64,000 bases of DNA from Petrachloros mirabilis ULC683. GTDB lineage: Bacteria > Cyanobacteriota > Cyanobacteriia > Thermosynechococcales > Thermosynechococcaceae. Position 1 is the stretch's first letter, and each line of letters begins with the position of its first letter. Positions 5,997-40,222 of the stretch are shown piece after piece. The position numbers were made by a program, and so were the translations under genes. The notes beneath the pieces were generated by a model. That model saw only the letters and a program-made list of their open reading frames with translations, had not been told where the DNA came from and made no database searches. The DNA is taken from positions 1-64,000 of the forward strand of contig NZ_WVIC01000027.1 in assembly GCF_009939295.1 (NCBI RefSeq), given 5' to 3'.

Positions 5997-7502
5997 ATGC
6001 CCTTTCCTCGCGCCAGTGGTCTGCTGCTTCACCCCACCTCCTTGCCGGGTCGCTTTGGCATTGGAGATCTAGGCCAAGCAGCCTATCAATTTGTAGACTT
6101 TATGGCAGAGAGTGGACAACAACTTTGGCAGGTGTTGCCCCTTGGCCCTACCAGTTTTGGGCACTCCCCATATATGTGCTACTCCGCCATGGCCGGCAAT
6201 CCGCTGCTGTTGAGCCTAGAGCACTTTCAAGAGCAGGACTTGCTTGGCGAAGCTGACCTCCAAATTGGGGTTGGCTTTCGCCCAGAGGTGGTGGCCTATG
6301 AACAAATGATGTCCATTAAGTGGTCACTCCTGCGCAAAGCCGCCCGCCAATTTCTGGCTCAAGACAGTGAGGACGATCAACAAGCCTTCGACGAGTTTTG
6401 TCAAACCCGTGCCCATTGGCTCAATGACTACGCCCTATTCATGGCGCTCAAAGATGCCCATGGGGGGGCAGGCTGGAACTACTGGGACGGTGCGATCGCC
6501 AAGCGAGACCCCACAGCACTTGACATTTGGCAACAAAAACTAATGGATGACATTGCCTTGCATAAAGTCTGGCAATTTCAATTTTTCCAGCAGTGGTCAA
6601 ACTTGCGGCAGTACGCCAACGACCATGGCATTCAAATTATTGGCGATATTCCCATTTATGTAGCTCATAACAGCGCGGATGTCTGGGCCAATCCCGAGCA
6701 ATTTCATTTAGATCCCATAACCGGTGAAGCCGCACTCATGGCTGGGGTTCCCCCCGATTACTTTAGCGACACAGGGCAGCTTTGGGGAAATCCCATTTAT
6801 AACTGGGCTCATATGCAGAACGATGGATTTCAATGGTGGCTCCATCGCTTCCGTACCATGCTGGAGTATGTCGATCTGATTCGTGTGGATCACTTTCGCG
6901 GCTTCCGGGCTTACTGGCAAGTGAAGCAGGGCGAGACCACAGCCATGAATGGAGAGTGGGTCAATGCCCCTGGAGATGAACTCTTTGAAACGATTCGCCA
7001 GGAATTTGGTAGCCTGCCCATTTTGGCAGAAGATTTGGGGGTGATTACGCCCGACGTGGAAGCCCTGCGGGATAAGTTTGAGTTTCCTGGCATGAAGATT
7101 CTCCACTTTGCCTTTGGCTCTGGCCCAGACAACCCCTATCTGCCCTATAACCTGAGTGCAAATTGCCTGGTCTATACCGGCACCCATGACAACAACACCA
7201 CTGTAGGCTGGTTTCACAGCCTATCAGAGGGTGAGCGTCAGATTGTTGAGGCTTACATCGGGGGCTTGTCGGCTGAGGGCATTCACTGGGACTTGATTCG
7301 ACTGGCACTCAGTACCGTGGCCAATCAGGTGATCATTCCGGTGCAAGATTTGTTGGGGCTCGATAGCGCGGCTCGGATGAATTTACCCAGCACCACTGGG
7401 GGAAATTGGTCGTGGCGCTATCCGCCCACTGCCCTGACAACAGCCATTGCCAATCGACTGCGGCACCTCACAGAACTCTATGGTCGTGGCCCTGCTCACT
7501 AG
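5997..7502 (+). CDS. malQ: 4-alpha-glucanotransferase (amylomaltase)
   Basis: GH77 enzyme that transfers alpha-1,4-glucan segments between maltooligosaccharides during glycogen breakdown. The N-terminus ASGLLLHPTSLPGRFGIGDLG is the classic GH77 opening. The catalytic residues are recognisable: the nucleophile Asp in RVDHFRGF (about residue 298), the acid/base Glu in LAEDLGVITP (about 345) and the third acidic residue in GTHDNNTT (about 398). I start at the ATG at 5997 because it directly precedes the conserved beginning; a TTG at 5976 adds seven extra residues. The length of 501 residues is standard. Confidence 0.96.
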   Translation: MPFPRASGLLLHPTSLPGRFGIGDLGQAAYQFVDFMAESGQQLWQVLPLGPTSFGHSPYMCYSAMAGNPLLLSLEHFQEQDLLGEADLQIGVGFRPEVVAYEQMMSIKWSLLRKAARQFLAQDSEDDQQAFDEFCQTRAHWLNDYALFMALKDAHGGAGWNYWDGAIAKRDPTALDIWQQKLMDDIALHKVWQFQFFQQWSNLRQYANDHGIQIIGDIPIYVAHNSADVWANPEQFHLDPITGEAALMAGVPPDYFSDTGQLWGNPIYNWAHMQNDGFQWWLHRFRTMLEYVDLIRVDHFRGFRAYWQVKQGETTAMNGEWVNAPGDELFETIRQEFGSLPILAEDLGVITPDVEALRDKFEFPGMKILHFAFGSGPDNPYLPYNLSANCLVYTGTHDNNTTVGWFHSLSEGERQIVEAYIGGLSAEGIHWDLIRLALSTVANQVIIPVQDLLGLDSAARMNLPSTTGGNWSWRYPPTALTTAIANRLRHLTELYGRGPAH

Positions 7503-7538
7503 GGTATGGTCTCGACTCTGGCTTCCCTCTCCCGTTCT

Positions 7539-7744
7539 GGGCTACCGTGTATACATAAGTCTGAGAAAAACGATTTCACCCTGCATTCGCCCCCTACATC
7601 CCCCATTCTGGGGGACTGTGAGATATTCAGAACCCCCCAATTACGCCCTTCGGGCACGCTTCGCGAGGGGGGGCAGGGGGGCGAGTGTAAGGATGTTAGA
7701 GGCTTTTAAATCATCTTTTTAGATTTGTGTGTACACCGTAGCCC
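7539..7744 (+). repeat. Full copy B of dispersed repeat with inverted ends
   Basis: A 206-bp non-coding element occupies most of the 346-base gap after malQ. Its ends are inverted: the left begins GGGCTACCGTGTATACATAAG and the right, read on the other strand, begins GGGCTACGGTGTACACACAA. Inside are CCCCCATTCTGGGGG and a C6-AATT...G-run palindrome that is interrupted by a 24-base insert (ACGCCCTTCGGGCACG...). Copy H at the right edge of the window is nearly the same sequence in inverted orientation. The flanks also carry CCCTCTCCC/GGGAGAGGGG inverted repeats. No coding potential is visible, so it is best seen as a MITE-like or REP-like element. Confidence 0.85.
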
Positions 7745-7848
7745 TCTCTGGGAGAGGGGTTGGGGATGTAGAGCTTTGCTCTTCTCGCAGAGTGGGTCTT
7801 AAAGATTTGCCAGCCAATCAGGTCTCCCTCAAAGCACCGACAGAGCAT

Positions 7849-8112
7849 TTAGGAGGCTATGGGGTGATCAATGGGGTGATCAATGACAGCGGGGTTGACG
7901 CTGAGTGGATCTCGAATCAGAGATTGGTTTTCGAGCCAATCATAGATTTGATCTAACTGGTGAAGGGTCACCAGACCGTTTTGCCACAGCAGAACCGGCA
8001 ACTGGGTCAAAGATGGATTGCGATGGCGCAGGACAACTGCGATCGCAGCCTCAGAGATTGCCAAGTCATGCCGCAAAAACTCTAAAAATTGAATGTTTAT
8101 TACGGATCGCAT
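7849..8112 (-). CDS. DUF2949-like small cyanobacterial protein
   Basis: An 87-residue protein with the pattern QFLEFLRHDLAISEAAI...LPVLLWQNGLVTLHQLDQIYDWLE, which matches what I know of the cyanobacteria-restricted DUF2949 family. Its function is unknown. The C-terminal tail is unusual: a 12-bp tandem duplication in the DNA (GGGGTGATCAAT twice on the + strand, at 7860-7883) gives the repeated peptide DHPIDHPI just before the stop. It stands alone downstream of the signalling block on the same strand, and its 3' end approaches repeat copy B. Confidence 0.7.
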   Translation of the reverse strand: MRSVINIQFLEFLRHDLAISEAAIAVVLRHRNPSLTQLPVLLWQNGLVTLHQLDQIYDWLENQSLIRDPLSVNPAVIDHPIDHPIAS

Positions 8113-8270
8113 GATTTTAAAGTGAGTGATTCAGATGTAATGTTATAAGTTTCCATATCCTACGCCCTGTTGAGGCAATTCAACTGGAAGAGACTATTAA
8201 TCTTTACCAAAGAATTCTGACAACCGATTTTGGCAGCCCCTCCCCCAGCCATGACCCCGCAAATTTGACC

Positions 8271-9371
8271 CTAAGAAGAGCAGGACAGCTCCGAAACCGT
8301 ACTGGGATCAAGGGGAAGACAAACTGAAAACACACTACCCACTCTAGGAGTAGAGGTGCAAGAAATTTTACCGCGATGAGCCTGAATAATTTGCCGACAG
8401 AGGTGTAATCCTAAACCATGGCCTGACTGCTTATGGGTTCCCCGGCGAAAGCGCTCAAAAATTAAAAGCTGATTTTCTGGGGAAATGCCCTCTCCTGTGT
8501 CTTCTGTTGTAAGCTGCAATTCGGTGTCAACGCGCTGCACCTGCACCGTAATTGACCCCGTTTCGGTAAACTTAATGGCGTTGCTAACCAGGTTGGTCAG
8601 CACCCGACGCAACTCCAAGCGATCGCCACAAATCTCATGGGTATCAGCTTGCCAGACCACCCTCAACGTCAGAGACTTTTGTTCAGCTAGGGGAAATAAC
8701 TCCTGAACCACCTCGTAGACAAGAGCCTTGAAATCAAAGGTAATAAAGCTCAGCATCTTCTCGCCCACCTCATAGCAATGCACTTCCAGGAGGGTATTGA
8801 GCATTTGCAGCAAGTTTTCATTGCTGTGAATGATATTGCCCAGTGCTTCGTGCGCCTCAGAGGAGACTTGGCCATACACCCCTTGTTGCAACAGGGTTAA
8901 CATGCGATCTGCGGCCACCAGCGGAGTACGTAGATCATGGGTCAGGCAAGACACAAAATTTTCGCGCTGATCAATCGCGTACTTCAGACGCAGCAGCGAT
9001 CGCACCCTTGCCAGCAACTCATCAATTCTGACAGGCTTGCGAATAAAATCATCCGCACCCAGGTCTAGCCCCTTAACCACACTGGACTGTTCATGAGCCG
9101 TAATCAGCAAAATGGGGATATAGGGCAAGTTCGCCTCAGCTTGGCGAATTCGCTGCGTGACATCGTAGCCACTCATCCCCGGCATCATCACATCCAAAAT
9201 CAGCAAGTCAGGGGGCGACGCTTGAATTTCAGCCAAGGCCGACTGTCCATCCGAGGCCAATCGCACCAGATACCCCTCTCGTTCGAGGGTCAACTGAACC
9301 AGCACCAGATTATCGGGCGTGTCATCCACAGCCAGAATATTGAACGATGCAGGATTAGGGTAAGCAGACAT
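8271..9371 (-). CDS. REC-histidine kinase (hybrid two-component protein)
   Basis: A 366-residue soluble signalling protein with an N-terminal receiver domain (acidic pocket VDD at 15-17, phospho-acceptor Asp60 in LLILDVMMPG, Lys in RKPV) followed by a HisKA helix hairpin (phospho-accepting His145 in CLTHDLRTP) and a HATPase domain with the N box NLVSNAIKFT and G boxes DTGEGI and GHGLGLHL. The order receiver-then-kinase suggests that phosphorylation of the receiver modulates the kinase. It is the last gene of a tight minus-strand run behind the Rcp1-like regulator and another REC-kinase (50-base gap), so it is probably co-expressed with them. Confidence 0.9.
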   Translation of the reverse strand: MSAYPNPASFNILAVDDTPDNLVLVQLTLEREGYLVRLASDGQSALAEIQASPPDLLILDVMMPGMSGYDVTQRIRQAEANLPYIPILLITAHEQSSVVKGLDLGADDFIRKPVRIDELLARVRSLLRLKYAIDQRENFVSCLTHDLRTPLVAADRMLTLLQQGVYGQVSSEAHEALGNIIHSNENLLQMLNTLLEVHCYEVGEKMLSFITFDFKALVYEVVQELFPLAEQKSLTLRVVWQADTHEICGDRLELRRVLTNLVSNAIKFTETGSITVQVQRVDTELQLTTEDTGEGISPENQLLIFERFRRGTHKQSGHGLGLHLCRQIIQAHRGKISCTSTPRVGSVFSVCLPLDPSTVSELSCSS

Positions 9372-9421
9372 AGAAGGAATATTGGGGGTGGGTCAGCAGC
9401 AGAGAAACCGAGCAGCAGTGG

Positions 9422-10630
9422 CTAAGGCGGCGACACCCGCCGGGGAAATTGCACCCAAAATGTAGAGCCTTGGTTCACTTGGCTATCGACAGTAATGCTG
9501 CCTTGGATGGCCTCAACTAGAGATTTGGTAATTGCCAAGCCTAACCCCGTACCGGGGTGAAGCCGCGTCAGCGTTTGGTCAGCCTGACGAAAGGGCTGAA
9601 AAATGGCCGTCAGATAGTCTGAGGGAATGCCAACCCCAGTATCCTGAACCCCAATCTCTAGGGTGTCATTCTCTAGGGCTTGCACTGTAATTCGCACACC
9701 TCCTGTCTCTGTAAATTTAATCCCATTGCCAATCAAGTTCATCAGGATACGTCGGATACAGTCTTGATCCGTGTGAACCTCTGGATTTTGCAGCCGAATG
9801 TCTAGATCCAGGAATAAACTTTTCTGAATGGCCAACACTCTTAACTCTTCAGCAGTCAGTTGCACCAGTTTGACTAAATCAAAGTCACTGACGCGTAGAT
9901 TTAAGTGACCTGCCTCAATTTTGGAGAAATCTAACACTTCGTTAAGCATGACCAGAAGATTTTGGCTATTGTTCAAAATCCGACTCACCATATCCAACTG
10001 TTGAGCTGTCAGTGGATCAGGATACTGCTCCCGCAAAAGCTGCGAAAAACCCATAATGGCATTCATCGGGGTGCGCAATTCGTGGGAAATCGTGGCCAGA
10101 AACTGGGATTTTAACTTTGACGCCTCAATTAGCTTTTTGTTCTGGCATTCAATTTGCTGACGCTGACTCTCTAGCTCCTGGTTTTGACGCAGCAACTGCT
10201 CGTTGGTGGTACGCAACTGCTGGTTCGCTAGTTCTGCCGCTCGCTCAGCTCGGGAAAGGCGCACAGCATTTTGCAGTACCTGAGACAATCGCTCGGGGGT
10301 GACTTTGGACTTAGCCAAATAGTCGGAGGCCCCAGCTTTCATGATTTCTACAGCCAGTTGCTCATCGCCCTGACCCGTCAAAACAATCAGCGGCACCCGA
10401 ATACCCAGTTCATCCAGTTGCCGGATTAAGTCCAAGCCATCTTGATCAGGCAGTCGGTAGTCTAAAAAAGCACAGTCAAAAGATTGCTCCTGTAACGTTT
10501 TGATGGCATCGGCGCAGTCCGTCGCTTCGACCAAACTTATCGATAGACCCGTGTTCCGCAAAGCTCGCCCGATGGCCATGCGATCGACAATGTCATCATC
10601 AACGATCAGAATATGTAGCTTTTCATCCAT
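9422..10630 (-). CDS. REC-histidine kinase with coiled-coil linker
   Basis: A 402-residue soluble protein: a receiver (DDD at 11-13, Asp57 in CAFLDYRLPD, Lys in LAKSK), a roughly 45-residue glutamine-rich coiled coil (about 125-170), HisKA with His183 in ISHELRTPMN and a HATPase domain with NLIGNGIKFT, DTGVGI and GTGLGLAI. It starts six bases after the stop of the Rcp1-like regulator, which strongly suggests one transcript. The likely job is relay of phosphate between the upstream sensor, the single-domain regulator and the final kinase; this is inferred from neighbourhood only. Confidence 0.9.
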   Translation of the reverse strand: MDEKLHILIVDDDIVDRMAIGRALRNTGLSISLVEATDCADAIKTLQEQSFDCAFLDYRLPDQDGLDLIRQLDELGIRVPLIVLTGQGDEQLAVEIMKAGASDYLAKSKVTPERLSQVLQNAVRLSRAERAAELANQQLRTTNEQLLRQNQELESQRQQIECQNKKLIEASKLKSQFLATISHELRTPMNAIMGFSQLLREQYPDPLTAQQLDMVSRILNNSQNLLVMLNEVLDFSKIEAGHLNLRVSDFDLVKLVQLTAEELRVLAIQKSLFLDLDIRLQNPEVHTDQDCIRRILMNLIGNGIKFTETGGVRITVQALENDTLEIGVQDTGVGIPSDYLTAIFQPFRQADQTLTRLHPGTGLGLAITKSLVEAIQGSITVDSQVNQGSTFWVQFPRRVSPP

Positions 10631-10636
10631 GGGATT

Positions 10637-11068
10637 TTAAAGCAATTCACACAGCGTCCAATATCGATTGAGGGCAACCATCACCTCTGCAAATTTAGAA
10701 AAGGTGACTGGCTTGAGAATATAGCCAGCAACATTGAGGTTGTAGGCTTCAATGCGATCGCGCTCTTCATTGGACGTGGTAAGCATAATCACTGGAATGC
10801 TTCTGAGCTCTGGATCCTGGCGCAGGGCATGCAGAAACTCTAGCCCGTTCATCCGTGGCATATTCAGGTCGAGCAGAATCAACCGCCGCTCTTTCGGCAA
10901 AACAGAGGGTTGTCCCTCTCGTCCCCGTAACATCGCCAGAGCTTCGACCCCATTTTCGGCAACGTACAATGGATTAGTGATGTTGTGCTTCACAAATGCA
11001 CGCCTGACATTCATGATGTCCACATCATCATCTTCCACTAGTAAAACATTGATAATCTTGTCCTCCAT
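10637..11068 (-). CDS. Rcp1-like single-domain response regulator
   Basis: A 143-residue CheY-like receiver with the acidic pocket EDDD (12-15), phospho-acceptor Asp67 in LLDLNMPRMNGLEFL and Lys in YILKPVTF. The extended loop between strands (REGQPSVLPKERR) and the LNMPRMNGLEFLHALR stretch are typical of the Rcp1 class that partners cyanobacterial phytochromes and related kinases. There is no output domain. It sits 262 bases downstream of a multi-PAS kinase whose H box is of the phytochrome class, the expected cognate partner, and six bases upstream of a REC-kinase. Confidence 0.9.
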   Translation of the reverse strand: MEDKIINVLLVEDDDVDIMNVRRAFVKHNITNPLYVAENGVEALAMLRGREGQPSVLPKERRLILLDLNMPRMNGLEFLHALRQDPELRSIPVIMLTTSNEERDRIEAYNLNVAGYILKPVTFSKFAEVMVALNRYWTLCELL

Positions 11069-11330
11069 GGAAGTTCAAAACACAAATAGCATAATAATTG
11101 TTACAATTTTTTTGTAATGAGTCTAGCTTACAGACTTGCTCCCCTGCTTTACCTCATCTTCAGGAAAGAGCTATGCTAAAAAATAATCTCTCTTCAGATA
11201 GAGAAGGTCGTTAATAGACTGCCCCAACTCATTAGTTTAGCCTAGCTCTTAGGGCTGATGGTGAGTTCGAGTTAGCAGTTGACTGCAAATGTTGGCATTT
11301 GCAATCATAATGCACCCTTCTGAAGAGAGA

Positions 11331-14300
11331 TTAGCTATCCTTAGGCCAGGTAAAACGAAAGGTCGCTCCCTGACCCACCTGAGACTCCAGCAGAATCTTG
11401 CCCTTGCGCGCCTCAATCAGTTTTTTGACAATGGACAAGCCAATGCCCGTATTTTCAGAGCGATCTCGCGCCTCTAGGGTCTGAAAAATGCCAAAAATTC
11501 GCTCATGGTACTCTGGGGCGATGCCCTGACCATCATCCCGAACCCTAAATTCCACGAAATGCCCCTGATCTTGAGCGCCAATCTCAATACAGCCATCTTC
11601 GCGGTCATGGTGCTTAATCGCATTGCTGATTAAGTTAGCAAACACCTGCTGCAAGGGCAACCGTTCACTCCGCAGGGTCGGCATCGGCGCAATCTGAATC
11701 GAGAACTGGGGCGGCACTCCCAAAAAGTCGAGGATTTCCGCTAGTAACTGGCCAACCTCAATCACCTCGATCTCGACCGTCTGGCGTCCTGCCCGAGAAT
11801 ACTCCAGCAGTCCATTGATCAGGTTTTCCATCCGTTGCACCCGTCCCCGCAGAAGATTCATTTGCACCCGGGTTTCATCAGTGAGTTGAGCCTGAAGGTC
11901 TTCTTCAATCCACTCAGAAAGATTGGCAATTGCCCGCAGCGGCGCTTTGAGGTCATGGGATGTGACATAGGCAAACTGATCGAGTTCTTGATTGCGCTTT
12001 TCCAGTTGAGCGGTCGTGTGGAGCAATACTGCATTCAGTTGGGTGAGTTCATCAGCCCGTGCTTGCAACACGGCCTCTGTCTGCTTGCGTTCGGTAATGT
12101 CGTTGAGGGTGCCCAGGGTGCCTGCAATCTGGTCTGCTTCGTCTCGGTAGCACCGCACATTGATCTCTAGCCAGCGAAAGCGACCACTCTGGGTGAGGCT
12201 GCGAAACTCATGGAAATAGGCATCTCGCCAGCCTTCGATTAGAGAGCGAAATAAATCGAGACCGTGGGCTTGATCCGCTTCGTCATAAATCAACTCTGTG
12301 AAGCAGGTGTGCAAACTCTCGGCAATCTCTCGCCCCGTGATGGCGGTCCAGGCGGGTGTCAGAAACACCCAATTGCCCTGGCGATCGGTTTGAAAAATGA
12401 CCTCCTGGACGCTGTTGACCACGGTACGATAGCGCTGCTCACTGTGAACCAAGGCTTCAGCAGTCTGTTTGCGTTCTGTAATGTCTTCAAAGGCGAGCCC
12501 AAGACACTGTTCCGGCAAGGGAAAAGCTTTGACGGCAAAGATGCTGGGCTTGACCCGTTCATCTCTATACTGAACTTCTTCTAGGTTGCGCCCTTCCTGG
12601 GTCAGAATCACCTCAATGTAGCTGGTCAATAACTCGCTATTAATGATGCCCGGAAACACCTGGTCAATTCGTCGTCCCAGTTCAGCTTGTAAGTCTATGC
12701 CTAACAGTTGAGAGGTGGCTGGGTTCGCAGCCACTAGGCGAAGGCTGCCAAAGTCTTGGGAATCCTCAAGCTGCCACACAAGAAAGCCCACCGGGATATT
12801 TTGAGCCACATTTAAGTAAAGTTCAGCTTGCCGCCGCGCTTCTTGTTCCCGAGCGAGCAACTCGTCTTGGCGGCGATTGACGGCTTCAAGTTGGGCGGTG
12901 CGATGGCGCACCCGTTGCTCAAGTTCTTCGTTCAGTTGGGCGATTTGCAGTTCGGCCCATTTGCGTTCACTAATGTCTTGAAGAGAGCCCACCATGCGAA
13001 TGGGCTGTCCGCTTTGATCCCATTGGGCTTGGCCGCGAGCGAGAAACCATTTGTAGTGGCCATTTTTGCAGTGCATTCGATACTCAGCCACATATTGATC
13101 ACAACGATGCTCTAGGTGTCTCTGTACCTGCTGCATTGTGGCTTCAATATCTTCGGCATGAACCAGTTGCCGCCAGCTTTCCAGGGTATTTGACAACTCT
13201 GCGTCGGCATAACCCAGCATGGCTTTCATCCGGGTAGACATAAACAGGTCTCCCGTGGTCACCGTCCAGTCAAAAATGCCGTCTCCGGTTCCCTGGAGGG
13301 CCAGTTGCCAGCGTTCTTCACTTTCTCTGAGTTGGATTTCGGCTTGTCGCCGCTGGGTAATATCTCGACCTTCGGCAATGAGCAGAACGACAGCGCCAGA
13401 CTCATCACAAATGGGCTTGAGGGAAAAGTCAATCACAGCGTGGGTATCGCCTGCGCCCCGAACGGTGACTTCATAGCGAATAAATTCGTTGGCTGCTGCC
13501 TGCTCTACGGCATGCCTCACTCTGGTTTGGGTGTCAGGGGAAATCTGCCACCAGTAGGTGTCCCAAATGGGTTTGCCGACCACTTCATCGAGGGGGATGC
13601 CCCCAAAGTCCAATGCGGACTGATTGGCCTCTAAAATGACTCCATCAGTTTGCAGCAGACCAATGAATTGAAAGGTCTGGTTAAACAAGGCTCGAAATTT
13701 ACGCTCACTGGCCTGAAGCGATCGTTCGATTTCCTTGCGCTCGGTGATGTCGCGCATGGCAACGACGGCTCCTAGTTTGCGACCCTCTGCGCCGATGATG
13801 GGGTCACCGCTCACTAGCACCGTGCGTGGCTGCCCCTGCTTGGGTAAAATCATCATCTCAACACCCTGTACCGATTCCCCCTGCAAGGCTCGATAAAGGG
13901 GCACTTCTTCAGGGCGAAGGGGGGTTTGGCCATCGGTGTGATAGAGGCTATAGTAGTTGGGCCATTTTTCTGCCGGGATGGCAGCCTCAGGTAGGTTATG
14001 GAATTCTCGGGTGGCTCGGTTAAACAGGCGCAACACGCCGTTGGCGTCACAGGCAACGATGCCTTCGGCTAAGTTGTCGAGCAGGGCATGGATAAATTGC
14101 TGTCGATTTTGAAGGACAGCATTCATTTCTAAAATTGACTCGATGTTGATGTAGGTGCCCCCCCATCCCTGGATCTGGCCAGCGGCGTCAAAGTGGGGGT
14201 AAGCCCGAGCCAGAAAGGTTTGATAGAGTCCGTCTGCTCCTAATAGCCGCAAGGTTAGCTCAAAGGGGTGGGGGTCGGAATGGCTTTGGTGCCAGTGGGC

Positions 14301-28594: not shown

Positions 28595-28687
28595 CGGCTT
28601 CTTAAGATTCCAAAATTGAATGCTGAAGTAATCAAGGGTAGCAAATAAATAAGAAACGCTTTACACTGAGCTAGAGACAGGATGCAG

Positions 28688-28729
28688 ATTACTCTAAAAA
28701 TTGGGATTAATCTCTATTTTTAGAATAAT
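28688..28729. other. AT-rich hairpin in the 28.6-29.3 kb spacer
   Basis: ATTACTCTAAAAAT (28688-28701) and ATTTTTAGAATAAT (28716-28729) form a 14-bp stem with one mismatch and a 14-base loop. It lies 94 bases after the first GT4 gene and could be a bidirectional terminator or a cruciform-prone spacer. The 683-base gap 28595-29277 is AT-rich compared with its surroundings and, apart from this hairpin and repeat copy D, shows no gene. Confidence 0.6.
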
Positions 28730-29052
28730 CTGTCAAACTCCCAGTCTCCCACGATCACAAACCTTGTTAAAAATTATGATTTTATTCAATCAAAATAAAT
28801 CCTATTTCCCCTTGCTAAATTTCCAGGAAAATGATAGGGCTGAGATCATGAAAGTTCTCAAATCCTAATTTTTTGTGAATTCCTCGGCAGACCTCTTTTT
28901 ATGTTGTAGAATAAAAATCAGTATGTTGCCTTGCGCACAGATCCTTCAACTCGGGGGTCTGGTGTGTATTTAGGCAACGGGTTCGAGATCGGGGGGCATC
29001 ACAACAGAAGCCGCAGGAGTGTAGCCATAGATCGGCGTATGCCTGAATCTAT

Positions 29053-30487: not shown

Positions 30488-32719
30488 ATGGCTAAGCCCA
30501 AACAGAGCCGCATGGGGGCACTTCTTCGTCCGCTGCAAAGGCGCAAAATTTTGAAGATCCTAGGCCTATTCCTGCTGGTGTGGGTTACTCAGCTCTGCTT
30601 GAGTTCAGGATGTCAACCTCATGCCTCTTTTCAGGTGAGTGCCGCTCAGGTGCAATTCTCGCCACGGTGGGTCAATGTGGATATTGGCGGCGGGGGATAT
30701 GTCACGGGAATCGCGGTGCCTTCGCAAGCGCCAGACGCTCCCTATTTGCGAACCGATATTGGGGGATTTTTTCGCTGGGAGCCGTCTGCTCAGCGTTGGC
30801 AGCCCTTGAGCGATCAGTTCAACCTCGAACAAAAAAATCTCTACGGGGGAGAGGCACTGGCTATCGATCCTCACAACCCTGAAATTGTATACATTGCCGC
30901 CGGGTTGTACTTGTCTTGGGGTTCAGGTGGGTTGTTTAAGTCTACGGATGGGGGGCAAACCTGGGTGCGCTCAGATTTGGCGGTGCCCATGGGGGGCAGT
31001 GAGGCGGGGCGTTGGTCGGGGCAGCGGTTGGCCATCGACCCCTTTGATTCTAATCGGCTATTTTTTGGATCCCGCCAGGACGGGCTGTGGCGATCTGAGG
31101 ATGGGGGCTTGACCTGGCAATCGGTGTCGAGCTTTGCTGTCGAGGCAAATCCAACTTGGGGGGTGTCGGTGGTGGCCTTTGACCCGCAGAGGCGCGATCG
31201 CATCTATGCCAGTGCCTATGAGGATGGGCTATATCAATCTGAAGATGGGGGCGCAACCTGGCAAAAGCTCGGGGGATGTCCCACCGAGATCCTGAAACTG
31301 GCAGTTGCAGCAACGGGTCGCCTCTACATCACGAACAATGCTCGACCTTGGGTGAGTCGCTACCAAGGGGGCACCTGCCAAAACATTACCCCGCCTCACC
31401 CCACCTCAACTGGATTTAATGCCCTAGCGGTGCGGCCAGATCATCCCGAGCAGGTCGCAATTGTGGAGCAGCAGACTGCAAGTCCGTTGATCTTGCGATC
31501 GCAAGACAGCGGTCAAAGCTGGGAGCGCCTTAACTCCCAGGTGCAAAATCGCCTGCCCTGGCTGCCCAACCGCTTCTTTGGCGATCACACCGCCGATCTG
31601 CAATGGGACTCAAACAATCGACTGTGGCTCACCGACTGGTTTAGCATTTGGCGCACCGACCCCCTAGAAGGGCGCACCACAACCTGGCGCAATCTTCCCT
31701 GGGGTCACGAGCAAATTGTCACCTTTAGCATTCTTGCCCCCCCCACCGGTGCCCTCTTGATCAGCGGTATTGCCGACATGGACGGCTTCTACCACCACCG
31801 GCTCGACCAGTTCCCCCAGCGTCGCCTGGGCTATAGTGCCAACCCTCAAGATGCCTTTCAAGATACCTACAGTCTTGCCTACAGTGCCCAACATCCAGAG
31901 TCCTGGGTGCGGGTCGCAGGCGATCGCTGGCGGTCACGCTATGGCGGTGCCACCTCCCAAGATGGCGGCCAAACCTGGCGGCAGTTCCCCACCTTTCCCT
32001 CAGGTGCCATCCCGCAGCGGGTGGCGGTATCGGCCACCCAACCCGATCGCTTTGTGATCACTATCCAGGAAGGAACCGCCTTACGCAGCAGCAATGGCGG
32101 CCAAACCTGGCAAACGGTGACTGGGCTTCCCCCCGGCAACAGTGGCCCCTGGAACTGGACACAACCCCTGGCAGCCGATAGCGTCAATGGCCAGAGCTTT
32201 TACTATTACCATCAAGGCACCCTCTATCGGAGCGACAATGGGGGGCTATCGTTTCAGCCCATCAACACCACCTTGCCAACAGAAGATCGAGTAACCCTGG
32301 TCAGCGTTCCCCACCAAGCCGGAGAACTTTGGCTAGCCTGCGAAAACCATGGCCTTTATCACTCCACCAATGCCGGGCAAAGCTTCACGGCTACTCCAAC
32401 CTTAACCCAGGCGCGATTGTTTGCCCTGGGTCGCCCCTTAGAGGCTGGTCAGGCTCCCGCCCTCTACGCCATGGGCGCTTTAAGTACACAAGAATCTGGT
32501 ATTTTTCTCTCTCTTGACAGTGGCCAAACCTGGCATAACATAAGTGAATCTGACCGTCCCATAGGAACCGACCCCAATGTGATGGCAGCCAGTCAGCAAC
32601 AGTTTGGACTGGTCTTTGTAGGAACCACTGGTCGCGGTATTTTTTATAAACACATTGATCCGGGTACTCTACCGGGTACTCTAGCTCATTCAGACTCTTC
32701 CCTGGTGCACCGCTTATGA
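30488..32719 (+). CDS. Secreted Asp-box beta-propeller protein (GH74/sialidase-like)
   Basis: A predicted 743-residue exported protein. After a basic N-terminus and a hydrophobic helix (ILKILGLFLLVWVTQLCLSSG) come at least nine Asp-box motifs of the form S-x-D-x-G-x-T-W (for example STDGGQTW, SEDGGLTW, SQDGGQTW, SLDSGQTW), which mark tandem beta-propeller blades. The first blade RTDIGGFFRWE and GLYLSWGSGGLFKSTDGG resemble GH74 xyloglucan-hydrolase-like proteins. It may trim or bind the polysaccharide made by this locus. Its stop overlaps the next ATG by four bases (ATGA), so it is coupled to the REC-Wzz gene. An upstream TTG at 30452 could add 12 residues. Confidence 0.75.
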   Translation: MAKPKQSRMGALLRPLQRRKILKILGLFLLVWVTQLCLSSGCQPHASFQVSAAQVQFSPRWVNVDIGGGGYVTGIAVPSQAPDAPYLRTDIGGFFRWEPSAQRWQPLSDQFNLEQKNLYGGEALAIDPHNPEIVYIAAGLYLSWGSGGLFKSTDGGQTWVRSDLAVPMGGSEAGRWSGQRLAIDPFDSNRLFFGSRQDGLWRSEDGGLTWQSVSSFAVEANPTWGVSVVAFDPQRRDRIYASAYEDGLYQSEDGGATWQKLGGCPTEILKLAVAATGRLYITNNARPWVSRYQGGTCQNITPPHPTSTGFNALAVRPDHPEQVAIVEQQTASPLILRSQDSGQSWERLNSQVQNRLPWLPNRFFGDHTADLQWDSNNRLWLTDWFSIWRTDPLEGRTTTWRNLPWGHEQIVTFSILAPPTGALLISGIADMDGFYHHRLDQFPQRRLGYSANPQDAFQDTYSLAYSAQHPESWVRVAGDRWRSRYGGATSQDGGQTWRQFPTFPSGAIPQRVAVSATQPDRFVITIQEGTALRSSNGGQTWQTVTGLPPGNSGPWNWTQPLAADSVNGQSFYYYHQGTLYRSDNGGLSFQPINTTLPTEDRVTLVSVPHQAGELWLACENHGLYHSTNAGQSFTATPTLTQARLFALGRPLEAGQAPALYAMGALSTQESGIFLSLDSGQTWHNISESDRPIGTDPNVMAASQQQFGLVFVGTTGRGIFYKHIDPGTLPGTLAHSDSSLVHRL

Positions 32720-34701
32720 CTCGCATCCTGATTGTCGATGACCAGCGCACGATTCGTGAATGCTTGCGCGCCATGCTAGAGCCTGACCCTGAACTGGTGG
32801 TGGTCGGCACAGCCGGGGATGGTCATACCGCGCTGGAACAGGTTGAGCTACTGCAACCCAATGTGGTGCTGATTGATATGGAAATGCCAGGTCTAGACGG
32901 GGTTCAGGCCACCGAGCTAATTTGCCAGCGATTTCCCGAGGTTAAAATCCTGGTTCTGAGTATGCACGATAGCGATGAATATGTCGCCAAAGCCCTCCAG
33001 GCAGGCGCGACAGGCTATTTACTCAAAAATACCCCAGCCCAGGACTTGCGAGAGGCGATTCGATTTGTAGAGCGCGGCTATGCCCAAATTGCCCCTCAGC
33101 TCTTTGACAAGGTGTTTTCAATTCCAACCGTTTCTAGAGAACCGCTGCCATCATACTCTCCCTTGCCGACAGCGATGGCATCTCATCCGAGGGTTGCGCC
33201 CCTCTCCAATGGCCAGGGCTTCGTGGATCAGGTGCCCAAGGCATTACAGCCAGCGGAACCCCCTTCCCCCCAACCCGCAACCGTTACCCCCCGTCATTGG
33301 AAGGGGTACCTGGGGCTGGGAGTGGGGAGCATGGCCGCCATTTGGCTGCTTTCTTTGGCCTATCTGGGCGCAACCGCTCCGGCCTATCGCAGTCAATGGA
33401 CGATTACATTGCCAGTGGCCAGTTCTTCCGCACGCGTCGATTTACCTGGCATTGGTCAAGCGACGGCTGAATCGAGTTCCCCCTATGGCAACCGGATGTC
33501 CGATCCCAGGGAAAACTATAAAGACCTGATGTTGACAGAAGAGGTGCGCTCTGCCGCCGCCGCCCGCCTCCAGATGCCCTTGGCAGACTTTGGCAGCCCC
33601 AGGGTTCAGGTGCTAGACAATACCACCCTGATGCGCATAGAGATGTCTGGAGAAACCCCTCAAGAAGCTCAAGATAAAGCTTTTGTACTCCATGAAGCCT
33701 TTGAAAATCGCCTAGAGCAATTGCGCCAAGAAGAGGTTGCTCAGCAAAATCGAGCTTTAGAGGCCAGCCTAGCGGGGTCGAGAGAAAAGCTCGAAGAAGC
33801 GCGTCAAAAACTGACCGCTTTCCAAGCCCAGGCAGGGTTAGACTCGGTTGAGCAACTCCGAGATTTATCAGTCAATATTGAGGGGCTCCGCCGACAGCGA
33901 TCGGAGGTAGAAGCACAGTGGCAACAGACAAAAGCCCAGGCACAGCAGCTCTCTCAAGAATTGGGGTTGACAGCTCCAGAGGCCGCAGATGCTTTTGCCC
34001 TGCAAGCAGATGCAACTTTTCAGCAGCATTTAGCGAACTACAGTCGAGCCAGTTCAGAGCTGGTACGTTTGAGTGCAAACTATCAGTCCGATTTTCCCGA
34101 AGTGGTCGATCGCCGCGAGGAACAGCAAGCGGCTCAGTCTGCCCTGTTGAGTCGAGGTCAGACGGTACTGGGGCGTTCGGTTTCCCCCTCAGTCCTGCAA
34201 CAGATGAATCTAATGGCCGGAGAAAGTACGGGAGGGGCTCGGGCTACGTTGTTCCAGGAGCTGGTATCCCTCCAAAATCGAGAGCGCGGTCTTGGGGAGC
34301 AATCTCAGGCATTGGTGCAACAGGTGTCAGAGCTTGAGGGTATGCTCAAAACTCTAGCGCCGCAAAAGGCTGAGCTACAAGCCCTTGAACGGGATGTGCA
34401 AATTGCAGAGGCGGTGTTTTCTTCGACATTGACACGCTTGGATTTGGGTCAAGTCAATGTGTCGGCCTCTTATCCAACGGTGTCGATCATGACGCAACCC
34501 AGTATGCCGGAAGCCCCCAGCGCCCCGAAGACAAAATTGGTTCTTTTGGGGGCAACCTTGGGCTCGCTCTTGACGGGCTTGGGTGCATTTTCTCTGTGGC
34601 GGCGCGATCGCACCTTTACCCCCACGGTGGTGACAGGGGTTCCCCAACTCCCAGCGGCTGCTCCAATTCTGAAGCCCAACCTGTTTTTAGATCAATCCTG
34701 A
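32716..34701 (+). CDS. Fusion of response-regulator receiver and Wzz/GumC-type polysaccharide co-polymerase
   Basis: A 661-residue protein combining two functions. Residues 1-125 are a NarL-class receiver (VDD at 7-9, phospho-acceptor Asp54 in VVLIDMEMPGLDG, Lys in GYLLKNTP) without the usual DNA-binding domain. A proline-rich linker leads to a first membrane span (about 200-220), a large external coiled-coil domain (ENRLEQLRQEEVAQQN, SREKLEEARQKLTAFQAQAG) and a second span (LVLLGATLGSLLTGLGAFSLW) near residue 620, the PCP layout that sets polysaccharide chain length. The tyrosine-kinase domain usual in cyanobacterial GumC-type proteins is absent. It is translationally coupled on both sides (ATGA, TGATG) to genes of the polysaccharide locus. 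Confidence 0.88.
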   Translation: MTRILIVDDQRTIRECLRAMLEPDPELVVVGTAGDGHTALEQVELLQPNVVLIDMEMPGLDGVQATELICQRFPEVKILVLSMHDSDEYVAKALQAGATGYLLKNTPAQDLREAIRFVERGYAQIAPQLFDKVFSIPTVSREPLPSYSPLPTAMASHPRVAPLSNGQGFVDQVPKALQPAEPPSPQPATVTPRHWKGYLGLGVGSMAAIWLLSLAYLGATAPAYRSQWTITLPVASSSARVDLPGIGQATAESSSPYGNRMSDPRENYKDLMLTEEVRSAAAARLQMPLADFGSPRVQVLDNTTLMRIEMSGETPQEAQDKAFVLHEAFENRLEQLRQEEVAQQNRALEASLAGSREKLEEARQKLTAFQAQAGLDSVEQLRDLSVNIEGLRRQRSEVEAQWQQTKAQAQQLSQELGLTAPEAADAFALQADATFQQHLANYSRASSELVRLSANYQSDFPEVVDRREEQQAAQSALLSRGQTVLGRSVSPSVLQQMNLMAGESTGGARATLFQELVSLQNRERGLGEQSQALVQQVSELEGMLKTLAPQKAELQALERDVQIAEAVFSSTLTRLDLGQVNVSASYPTVSIMTQPSMPEAPSAPKTKLVLLGATLGSLLTGLGAFSLWRRDRTFTPTVVTGVPQLPAAAPILKPNLFLDQS

Positions 34702-37022: not shown

Positions 37023-38288
37023 ATGCCCCTTAAAAAAATAAAACACTTTCTGTCTGGAAAATTCATTCAAAATGTAGGCTGGCTGGGGGCAGCAGAGATT
37101 GCTAATCGACTGTTTCGGGTTGGTACTACAGTGACGCTGGCTAGGATCTTCAGTACTGAAGATTATGGCTTAATGGCTCAAATTTATATTATTTTTGATC
37201 TGTCTCAAGTTTTTACCTTAAAAGGGGGAATTGCTGCAAAGGTAATTCACACTGAAGAATCTTCTTTAGAAACTATTTGTCGAACCTCTTATTGGTTAAA
37301 TTGGATTTTGTGCATTGGGGTATTTCTATTGCAATTGTGTGTGGCCTGGTCTCTAGCTTATGCCCAAAGGAGCTTTGAGCTGGGTTTGCAGTTGAGTATT
37401 GTGGGGCTTATATATTTGATGTTCCCGCTCTATACCATTCAGGCTGCATTGATTGAACGGCAAAACCGTTTGGAAGTTCATGCTTACTGCGTAGCTGCCT
37501 ATTCATTTTTAAGTAACTTTATTACGATTGTGCTGGCAGTATGGGGGTTTGGGGTCTGGTCAATTGTTTGGGCAATGGTCATAAGTATGCCGGTTTGGAT
37601 TGTGATCAGTCGCTGGCAACATCCCTGGCGAGCACCGACTCAATTTCGGCTGGATCGCTGGCGGGAAGTGATTCGCTTCGGAGGGAATCTCTTAGGGGTT
37701 GAAATATTGGGGACAATGCGGCTCAATGCTGATTACTTAATTGTGAGGAGTTTTTTGGGGGTTGAGGCACTGGGTCTGTACTATTTTGCCTATAATGCGG
37801 GCTCAGGAATTACAAGCTCGATCCTCAGCAAGTTAATGATCCCGTTGTTTCCCTATCTCTGTGAAGTTAGGACAAATTCAGAGGCTTTTAAGAAACGGTA
37901 CTGGAGCAGCTTCAAAACTGTTCTGTTGACTATGACGCCAATTGTGCTGTTGCAGGCAAGTTTGGCACCCTGGTATGTACCGATTATTTTTGGAGCGCAG
38001 TGGGTTCCAGCTATTCCTATTTTAATTTTGATTTGTCTGGCTATTTTGCCGATTACCTGGGGCTGGTTGGCTACCATTTTGTTGAATGCGATGGATAAAA
38101 CCCACATTCCCCTTTATTTTGGAGTGGGCTATACCGGAGTTTTTGTGATAGCAATTTTAGGGGCTGTGCGTTTTCAAGCGCTGGGGGTTGCGATCGCAGT
38201 TCTGTGTAGTCACTTCATCGGTCAGTCCTTGTTTGCCTTGGGGGCGCACTGGTATGTTTTCAGGAAGTTGAAATCTCAATGGAGCTAA
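37023..38288 (+). CDS. Polysaccharide flippase (Wzx/MOP superfamily)
   Basis: A 421-residue membrane protein with about 12 hydrophobic segments, opening with VGWLGAAEIANRLFRVGTTVTLARIFSTEDYGLMAQIY in family-typical form (the A-R-x-x-x-x-x-x-Y-G motif), which fits the oligosaccharide flippases that move lipid-linked repeat units across the inner membrane. It follows the GT2 gene by 11 bases and is the last gene of the polysaccharide run. Its stop overlaps by three bases the stop of the convergent recombinase gene. Base composition is AT-rich relative to the rest of the window, a common trait of exchanged surface-polysaccharide genes. Confidence 0.88.
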   Translation: MPLKKIKHFLSGKFIQNVGWLGAAEIANRLFRVGTTVTLARIFSTEDYGLMAQIYIIFDLSQVFTLKGGIAAKVIHTEESSLETICRTSYWLNWILCIGVFLLQLCVAWSLAYAQRSFELGLQLSIVGLIYLMFPLYTIQAALIERQNRLEVHAYCVAAYSFLSNFITIVLAVWGFGVWSIVWAMVISMPVWIVISRWQHPWRAPTQFRLDRWREVIRFGGNLLGVEILGTMRLNADYLIVRSFLGVEALGLYYFAYNAGSGITSSILSKLMIPLFPYLCEVRTNSEAFKKRYWSSFKTVLLTMTPIVLLQASLAPWYVPIIFGAQWVPAIPILILICLAILPITWGWLATILLNAMDKTHIPLYFGVGYTGVFVIAILGAVRFQALGVAIAVLCSHFIGQSLFALGAHWYVFRKLKSQWS

Positions 38289-40222
38289 GTGCGTTCATCA
38301 ACAAAGGCTTTCAGCGCTTGAGCATCTTTGCCCCGATTGTGTCCGGCCAAGTTTTCGACACCGATATCGCTATGGTGCTCCCAGAGTTCGTTTTGAAATG
38401 TGGCGCAAAATTCCTTCGCCGCCTTGCGATGAATCCGAAAGATGCTCTCTAGCAAACCTGGGTTGACGGCGAAGGTTTGCTCGGGATGGAGGTGGTTCCA
38501 CTCTTGAATGGCATAAAAAATTTTCTCGGCTCGCTGCATTGCGCGCCCTTTGATCCGGCTGGGTTGGTGAACCACGGACACCTGTGGAGCAGACGGAACT
38601 GGCGGGGGCACTGGCGGAGCGGGGGTCTCTGGGGTTGGCTGCCCAGCATCGGGGGGCGAACTTCCGAGTAAAAGCTGGCGAAAGTGGTCAAGGGTTTGCT
38701 GGGCGTCATGGAGTTGGGTGGCCAGGGTTTGGTTTTGCGATCGCAGCTCCTTCAGGGTTTGGCTATCTCCCTGTTGGGACTGGTGGGCGGTCTCTTTGGC
38801 TTGGCGCAGGGCTTCATTTTCAGCCTCTAGAGACTCCACCCGTTGCACCAGCCAGCGCAGATCAACCTGCTGGCGGAGAGACTCTAGCTGAGCTTGCACC
38901 TCGGCTTGGAGAGTCTCTAGCTGCGTTGTCATCGCTTGCCGCTCTTGGGCTAATTTTTCATCCATCTGGCGCTGCACTTCAGCTTCAAGGGTTGCCAAAC
39001 TCGCTGCGCTAGGAGTGGCAGGCAATTTCTGGCGTTGAGCTGACTGAGCCCCAGGGGATTGGGTGGGAATAGATCCTAGCTCTGGTGTTTCAGGTAGTAC
39101 CGCTTCGGCCAGAAGCGGCAGTTCCCCCACCTCTGGCAATAAAACACCTTTATCTCGAATGAGCTTGCCTTCTGTATCTACCAACTGAAAGCGAAAGTAG
39201 TTACCTGTCGCCGAGGACTGCATCACATGGCCGAGATAGTGCTGCAAAAAGGCATACTCATGGTGGTGCTCAGGACAAAAGAAATAGGTGGCAATGGCAC
39301 CCCACAGGCTTCTGAGGTTGTGAACCGAAACCGATTTTTTGCCCGCCAAGACCGGGACAATGCCAGGCTGGCGCAGCAGCTTCTCACATTCTCGATTCAC
39401 CTGCACATCAAATTTATTGATCCCGCGTCTGAGGGCTTCCCCTTGCTGCGATGGTCCCAGACCGCCCTTCGAGCCTCGCAGCGCCTTTACCTCTGACATG
39501 CGACGAAACCGATTCAGCGCCGTTAACACCTCCTGGGCGGGCAACAACGTCACAATATCGTAGCTGTCACGCTCGTGCTTTTGCTGCCCCGAGAAGTGCA
39601 ACATATAGGGATGCTCGGTGAGCCGAAAGGATCCTCTCGCCACCACCTCCCCAATCCGACGACCCGTAACCCCAGCGATGGCAATCGCTAAATGACGCGC
39701 CGCAAACTTGCCCCTGGCCTTCAGTAAAGACTGCAAAACCTCCAGATATTGATCGACGGGAACCGTCTTCAGATTGAGCTGCCGGGTGCGATTGACCTGG
39801 GCTTGGCGCGTATCTAGCGCTTCATATTCCTCGGCAGAGTATTTAAGGTAGGTCAGGGCCAAGTGTTCAAACCGCTCCTCAGATTTGCCCGTCACGCGCT
39901 GATGGTGAACATAGCGATGGCTGGTTTGAGGCGTCAGGGGTAAGGTTCCCGCCTCAATTGCCGCTTCCAGGGCTTGCCGATAGCGGGGAATATAATCTGA
40001 AGCCAGGGTCAGCCGTGGGTAGCCCTCTTCCAGTAGATCAATTTCAGCCGCACAAAGAGCCTGAATGGCAGCCTCAGAGTCTGCCTGTTGCAGTTGGGTA
40101 ATAAAACCTGCCACCAAAACTTCAAACTCTGCCTTATAGAGCTTGATGCGCTTGTCTTGGGCGATGCGATCGCGGTAGCTCTCTAACACCCCATCACGGG
40201 TCAAATGAGTCGAAGTAACCAC
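38285..40222 (-). CDS. Tyrosine recombinase resembling telomere resolvases (protelomerase-like)
   Basis: A 645-residue protein. A helical N-terminal region (1-165) precedes a tyrosine-recombinase catalytic core: Arg189 in VTGRRIGEVV, Lys215 in FSGQQKHERD, His301-x-x-Arg304 in VHNLRSLWG, His332 in YLGHVM and the presumed nucleophile Tyr342 in TGNYFRF. The FSGQQK hairpin, the length (TelK and TelN are of about this size) and the large N-terminal domain resemble protelomerases more than Xer or phage integrases. Beyond the tyrosine lie a long coiled coil (about 410-525), a proline-rich linker and a separate C-terminal helical domain. No integration site or phage genes are adjacent. The substrate is unknown; the assignment to telomere resolution is inference. 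Confidence 0.65.
   Translation of the reverse strand: MVTSTHLTRDGVLESYRDRIAQDKRIKLYKAEFEVLVAGFITQLQQADSEAAIQALCAAEIDLLEEGYPRLTLASDYIPRYRQALEAAIEAGTLPLTPQTSHRYVHHQRVTGKSEERFEHLALTYLKYSAEEYEALDTRQAQVNRTRQLNLKTVPVDQYLEVLQSLLKARGKFAARHLAIAIAGVTGRRIGEVVARGSFRLTEHPYMLHFSGQQKHERDSYDIVTLLPAQEVLTALNRFRRMSEVKALRGSKGGLGPSQQGEALRRGINKFDVQVNRECEKLLRQPGIVPVLAGKKSVSVHNLRSLWGAIATYFFCPEHHHEYAFLQHYLGHVMQSSATGNYFRFQLVDTEGKLIRDKGVLLPEVGELPLLAEAVLPETPELGSIPTQSPGAQSAQRQKLPATPSAASLATLEAEVQRQMDEKLAQERQAMTTQLETLQAEVQAQLESLRQQVDLRWLVQRVESLEAENEALRQAKETAHQSQQGDSQTLKELRSQNQTLATQLHDAQQTLDHFRQLLLGSSPPDAGQPTPETPAPPVPPPVPSAPQVSVVHQPSRIKGRAMQRAEKIFYAIQEWNHLHPEQTFAVNPGLLESIFRIHRKAAKEFCATFQNELWEHHSDIGVENLAGHNRGKDAQALKAFVDERT

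Follow-up and report, generated by a model that had tools for sequence, protein, structure and literature searches.

We analysed a stretch of 64,000 nucleotides from the cyanobacterium Petrachloros mirabilis ULC683 (the window; contig NZ_WVIC01000027.1), in which a gene on the minus strand encodes a protein of 645 amino acids (aa) that, by profile and predicted structure, is a telomere resolvase (protelomerase). The reading frame contains no internal stop. A predicted N-terminal DNA clamp, a linker helix and the catalytic domain are followed by a predicted coiled coil and a conserved C-terminal domain (Table 1).

Identity and architecture of the predicted resolvase

Pfam search of the 645-aa protein revealed a match to the ResT-TelK catalytic domain (PF16684) with 207.1 bits and E = 2e-61 (cut-off 27), a value that excludes a chance match, and no integrase or Xer family was matched in Pfam or NCBIfam at E-values up to 1. 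A profile of 22 relatives retrieved TelA (1e-23), TelK (5e-20), and ResT (1e-4) from the PDB but neither integrases nor Xer proteins, and PF16684 was matched by all 22 alignment members. The NCBIfam equivalog model of TelA (NF052462) gave 23.1 bits over an N-terminal stretch alone, against a curated cut-off of 800 bits, suggesting that the protein is a relative of TelA, not TelA itself. The core of the predicted structure has predicted local distance difference test (pLDDT) values above 90. Alignment of this model with VIA-align gave Z scores of 22.4 for TelA over 281 residues (model residues 1–357), 19.3 for TelK over 277 residues (model residues 15–362), and 14.8 for ResT over 156 residues, and the top eight Foldseek matches were all telomere resolvases. 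The preliminary description of the gene, which had likened the product to telomere resolvases rather than to Xer or phage integrases and had proposed profile searches and comparison with TelK and TelA as checks, is thus borne out by both. The alternative of an ordinary tyrosine recombinase, of Xer or phage type, with a mere resemblance to resolvases draws on the shared catalytic fold and HxxR motif and on the middling Z scores of 8–10 reached by XerA, XerH, the Tn1549 integrase, and Cre, but TelA lies 12 Z units above the best of them (9.8) and neither Pfam nor the PDB profile list offers an integrase, so that an ordinary integrase is excluded in practice.

The catalytic residues named in the preliminary description (R189, K215, H301xxR304, H332, and Y342) all lie at the positions given there. 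In an alignment of 37 proteins, R189 and R304 are invariant (37/37 each), while K215 and Y342 are conserved in 36/37 each. The segment LHFSGQQK forms the strand pair bearing K215, and an (F/L)xGQxK-like motif recurs across the clade described below. Alignment of the model indicated that the N-terminal clamp and the linker helix are arranged as in TelA and TelK, and the N-terminal domain aligns by profile with residues 154–239 of TelA (independent E-value 1.7e-4).

Comparison with the known systems revealed both likenesses and differences. TelA of Agrobacterium (PDB 4e0z, 4dwp, 4f41) resembles the window protein in the N-terminal clamp, the catalytic domain, and the catalytic scheme, whereas nothing in TelA aligns past model residue 357, making the coiled coil and the 90-aa C-terminal domain extra in the window protein. 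TelK and TelN (PDB 2v6e), which belong to linear plasmid-prophages, are similar in the catalytic domain and the overall arrangement, but they are phage-encoded, whereas the window gene has no phage genes nearby. ResT of Borrelia (PDB 8vs5) is similar in the catalytic domain and differs in size, in the N-terminal part, and in lacking the C-terminal extension. His301 of the window protein corresponds to Tyr363 of TelA, and ResT also has Tyr at this position (PMC3558466).

The region beyond the nucleophile was also correctly described as an additional coiled coil and a terminal domain. Residues 407–518 form long helices in the model (407–452, 455–482, and 486–518) and have Pfam and PDB matches of the coiled-coil type only. 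The C-terminal domain is modelled as a compact structure of six helices (pLDDT 94.6; about 95 for the helical part, residues 560–644), is conserved across the clade, most clearly at W575-N576 and H617, and occurs in one copy in this genome. No confident fold match for this 90-aa domain was found in the PDB or in a viral structure library; a winged-helix protein with Z 2.6 was not counted as evidence. As a guess, the coiled coil and the C-terminal domain may provide extra dimer contacts or DNA binding.

Table 1. Positions of the predicted resolvase gene and of its parts in the window
Feature	Coordinates	Strand	Basis or remark
Telomere resolvase (protelomerase) gene, predicted	38285..40222	-	645 aa, GTG start; PF16684, PDB profile, structure
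N-terminal helical DNA-clamp domain (predicted), residues 8–125	39848..40201	-	Equivalent of the TelA N-terminal domain
Interdomain linker helix, residues 130–149	39776..39835	-	Profile alignment and model
Catalytic domain ResT-TelK_cat, residues 150–345	39188..39775	-	Pfam
Catalytic Arg189 codon	39656..39658	-	Alignment
Catalytic Lys215 codon	39578..39580	-	Alignment
H301-x-x-R304	39311..39322	-	His where TelA and ResT have Tyr
Catalytic His332 codon	39227..39229	-	Alignment
Nucleophile Tyr342 codon	39197..39199	-	Alignment
Coiled coil (predicted), residues 407–518	38669..39004	-	Helices in model
Conserved C-terminal domain, residues 556–645, six helices	38288..38557	-	Model and clade alignment

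The window comprises nearly all of a contig of 64,065 bp (C43) in a genome of 4.12 Mb in 79 contigs. On one side the resolvase gene is flanked by a polysaccharide flippase gene and glycosyltransferase genes, and on the other side by mfd, identified from its sequence, and by genes for a coiled-coil protein and a Uma2 nuclease-like protein. Because this contig carries housekeeping genes (gshB, malQ, murJ, mfd, glmS, and hrcA), it is chromosomal, in agreement with the earlier statements that the gene is host-encoded in a cyanobacterial chromosome and that no phage or plasmid genes surround it. The G+C content of the gene is 0.53–0.55, compared with 0.53 for the contig. TATACA-type repeats, which are found near the telomeres of several relatives, are not enriched around the gene. 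Elsewhere in the window, positions 32716–34701 encode a 661-aa protein with a response-regulator receiver-like start followed by a polysaccharide chain-length (Wzc-type) part with coiled coils, which, judged by eye, is an unusual fusion.

Relatives and the ends of their replicons

PF16684 was detected in 15 of the 386 sampled genomes of the phylum, 14 of them above the cut-off, and in 15 of the 29 genomes and 7 of the 11 genera of the window's own family; Synechococcus elongatus, a named control, also matches PF16684. When genome contigs were queried with the single protein no matches were obtained, while an alignment of the close clade retrieved 27 loci. No relatives were found in viral contigs or phage records at the sensitivity used. 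The relatives lie mostly on plasmids or small contigs, several with palindromic ends; the named ones are plasmid-borne, and many are annotated as 'protelomerase family protein' or 'telomere resolvase', so the family is already named in cyanobacterial databases.

In a tree built from catalytic domains, the window protein falls in a 20-member clade (bootstrap 100) that includes proteins of Gloeocapsa, Gloeocapsopsis, Crocosphaera, Chroococcus, Stenomitos, and Gloeothece PCC 7822 (474 kb). The plasmid proteins of Gloeothece PCC 7822, Gloeocapsa PCC 7428, and Gloeocapsopsis dulcis have the same architecture, including the conserved C-terminal domain, with 41–45% identity over the aligned protein, the PCC 7822 copy reaching 55% in its best segments. 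These three copies are plasmid-borne, two of them on replicons deposited as linear, whereas the window copy lies among housekeeping genes with no telomere nearby. Two other copies, both in the window's family, are on chromosome-like contigs, one (G400) adjoining mutS2 and an NADH dehydrogenase-type gene and the other (G296) beside transporter, kinase, and ThiF genes, and none of the same-clade relatives has a neighbourhood in common with the window gene. Lyngbya confervoides also carries degraded extra gene copies (L260 and L275) on contigs labelled plasmid; the coverage in the title of L260 is 1308, compared with about 350 for two further contigs available from the strain.

Analysis of the replicon ends revealed palindromes in several relatives. 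Linear topology is given for both Gloeothece PCC 7822 records with relatives (474 kb and 13.8 kb); the 13.8-kb plasmid (NC_014535.1, L042) has (CTC)GCGAGTATGC at both ends, and long arrays of GTATAGGGTGTACAGGGAACTT-type tandem repeats come next. The 202-kb plasmid of Gloeocapsa PCC 7428, also deposited as linear, has TACATTGTTATATTGGAATTCCAATATAACAATGTA at both ends; the same 36-bp palindrome starts each end, and the next 160 bases, which were compared, are identical. In the Gloeocapsopsis dulcis record NZ_CP119970.1 (L056), whose deposited topology is circular, a perfect palindrome centred at 211060 has arms of 1,738 bp; the Gloeocapsa telomere core recurs at its centre, 7.8 kb from the resolvase gene, and the record probably represents a linear plasmid that assembly has closed. 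One Crocosphaera contig terminates in ATGTTTCCTTGGAATTCCAAGGAAACAT, and TTGGAATTCCAA is common to the Gloeocapsa, Gloeocapsopsis, and Crocosphaera telomeres. In genome G078, contigs C59 and C53 each bear an identical perfect palindrome at their two ends (38 and 106 bp), and contigs of Stenomitos, Oculatella, and Chroococcus FPU101 with relatives have perfect or near-perfect palindromic ends, the Chroococcus palindrome, which has a different core, being taken with caution. As a control, the window genome has 158 contig ends, of which four (two contigs) read as N, and palindromic ends were found at 0 of the 154 readable ones; such ends are therefore not a general artefact of assemblies of this kind.

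Plasmid pNPM9 of Nostoc N6 (NZ_CP026691.1, L052) carries a PF16684 gene of a more distant relative. The linear plasmids of this strain, including pNPM9, were inferred from read data to have covalently closed hairpin ends with AAATTAACRGAC (PMC5987646), which is the core of the palindrome seen in this analysis; pNPM9 is listed as circular in the sequence collection, in contrast to its linear, hairpin-ended form in that report. The text of PMC5987646 leaves the end-forming enzyme unnamed, and the words telomere and resolvase do not occur in it. Since the Nostoc protein falls outside the 20-member clade, the published hairpins concern a more distant relative. For the closer relatives, the evidence consists of palindromic ends and deposited linear topology.

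Chromosomal resolvases also occur outside this clade. In a sister genus within the window's family (g144), a distant relative from another branch of the tree was found in 7/7 genomes searched; it lies on a 4.5-Mb contig in genome G386, its neighbourhood is partly common to three genomes, and its ratio of nonsynonymous to synonymous substitution rates (dN/dS) is 0.07–0.15 across six genomes (Nei-Gojobori method; the ratios are rough, many dS values being near saturation). These features indicate that chromosomal resolvases can be kept by selection. Near both ends of a 416-kb contig of G386 (C3) lie inverted repeats (L236, 3548–14656, and L237) that are 11.1 kb long and 98.7% identical, together with resolvase gene fragments; this contig is a candidate linear replicon. 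Locus L014 (G036:C1:2075679-2079158), on a contig of 2.7 Mb, encodes a divergent homologue with PF16684 that keeps the first Arg region, while the catalytic Tyr and HxxR motifs were not found in a rough alignment; it is possibly a domesticated or decayed resolvase.

A further palindrome was observed in the single-contig 4.68-Mb genome G027. Locus L038 (G027:C1:2103191-2123190) contains a perfect palindrome with arms 6921–9999 and 10001–13079 (3,079 bp) and a 1-nt spacer; each arm carries one complete 876-aa resolvase gene, the two genes diverging from the centre, and the flanks contain chromosome-type genes (malic enzyme; TonB/ExbB/FecCD). It resembles a pair of telomeres that assembly has joined, or else an inverted duplication, and the main chromosome of G027 might be linear. 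Where the palindrome lies with respect to dnaA and dnaN gave no further clue.

Proposed role and search for a target

Because the clade is largely plasmid-borne whereas the window gene is chromosomal, we propose that the resolvase most likely serves in trans a linear replicon that was not recovered here, a reading to which we assign a probability of roughly two in three. Precedents are available in the known systems: the target of TelA is a linear replicon that does not carry the TelA gene, and ResT, encoded on one replicon, also serves others. Given its homology to TelA, TelK, and ResT, the enzyme would bind, as a dimer, the palindromic junction made by replication of a hairpin-ended linear DNA, and each Tyr342 would attack one strand to form phosphotyrosine links. 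Cleavage sites are 6 bp apart in known telomere resolvases. The strands would next fold back, and rejoining of the freed ends would leave two covalently closed hairpins. Since this known mechanism fits, the 'undescribed recombination system' raised as an option in the preliminary description is not needed.

Several observations weigh against service to an unrecovered linear replicon. Telomere-like palindromes are absent from the 154 readable contig ends and from contigs below 20 kb, the scan leaving aside the interiors of large contigs, and both TTGGAATTCCAA and the Gloeocapsa telomere core are absent from the genome. No linear replicon was found in this genome, and neither was the plasmid replication gene DUF3987; the plasmid replication gene DUF3854 was not found either, in a search that matched no control genome and so shows little. 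Branching within the 20-member clade is weak around the window protein (bootstrap 16–37), and its closest relatives, from Lyngbya confervoides (54% identity) and G400 (51%), have no telomere in hand. In the profile alignment, the TelA refolding residues Tyr201 and Arg205 correspond to Y133 and D137, Arg205 being essential for hairpin formation in TelA; these refolding residues are not well conserved between telomere-resolvase systems (PMC3558466). Within the window, no palindrome with perfect arms of at least 14 bp was found, the best one having 24-bp arms with 3 mismatches (28685–28732). The linear replicon or palindromic target earlier suggested for this genome has thus not materialised in the parts scanned. 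Twenty contig ends have no sequence in common with other ends, and none is telomeric in look; the remaining contig breaks are mostly junctions at 55-bp repeats. A target, though unproven, may accordingly exist beyond the contig ends, small contigs and window covered by the scan, and linear plasmids can drop out of short-read assemblies.

The absence of a target or linear replicon from the readable ends, the contigs below 20 kb, and the core search would also be expected of a stranded copy, which arrived with a linear plasmid by integration or transposition and has not yet begun to decay since the plasmid was lost. The unrelated gene locations among relatives, as expected of sporadic capture, and the degraded copies in Lyngbya confervoides point the same way. 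However, the frame is intact with all catalytic residues present, and the match in G+C between gene and contig speaks against a very recent arrival from a compositionally different source, and we consider a stranded copy unlikely. Less probable again is a domesticated host enzyme acting in strand annealing, in repair, or in resolving cruciforms, hairpins, or replication intermediates. The conserved g144 relative, with its upstream neighbourhood common to three genomes and its purifying selection, is in line with such a use, and PMC7861564 reports single-strand annealing as an activity conserved among telomere resolvases. The g144 gene, however, sits on another branch of the tree, and some of the extra copies in G386 lie near the ends of the 416-kb contig with inverted repeats, where a telomere role is possible.

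Service in trans to a linear replicon also allows a broader and only tentative extension, which we regard as doubtful at present. Some cyanobacteria, including this one, may keep the ends of large linear replicons, in places of a chromosome, as hairpins by means of a chromosomal, selectively maintained resolvase that has a dedicated C-terminal domain; finished records called 'circular' that contain multi-kilobase perfect palindromes, such as those of G027 and Gloeocapsopsis dulcis, would then be linear molecules joined by assembly.

Significance for cyanobacterial replicons

Borrelia, Agrobacterium, and N15-like phages are the textbook cases of hairpin telomeres, and linear replicons in cyanobacteria are called rare. 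The TelA structure paper counts cyanobacteria among bacteria with hairpin telomeres and gives no reference, and PMC5987646 is the sole report of cyanobacterial hairpin ends that we found. The kind of enzyme is already known; as far as the open literature was searched (subscription literature lying outside the search), three findings are new, namely a chromosomal copy with no telomere nearby, a conserved C-terminal domain, and the joint occurrence of the family and palindromic ends across many cyanobacteria. The new enzymes may be of use for making closed-end linear DNA. The link between a resolvase family and palindromic ends on many cyanobacterial plasmids offers a concrete, testable explanation of those ends. 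Because close relatives reside on cyanobacterial plasmids with perfect-palindrome ends, the results suggest that cyanobacteria contain hairpin-ended DNA more commonly than so far recognised, and the chromosomal copy suggests that in cyanobacteria a resolvase and its target can sit on different replicons.

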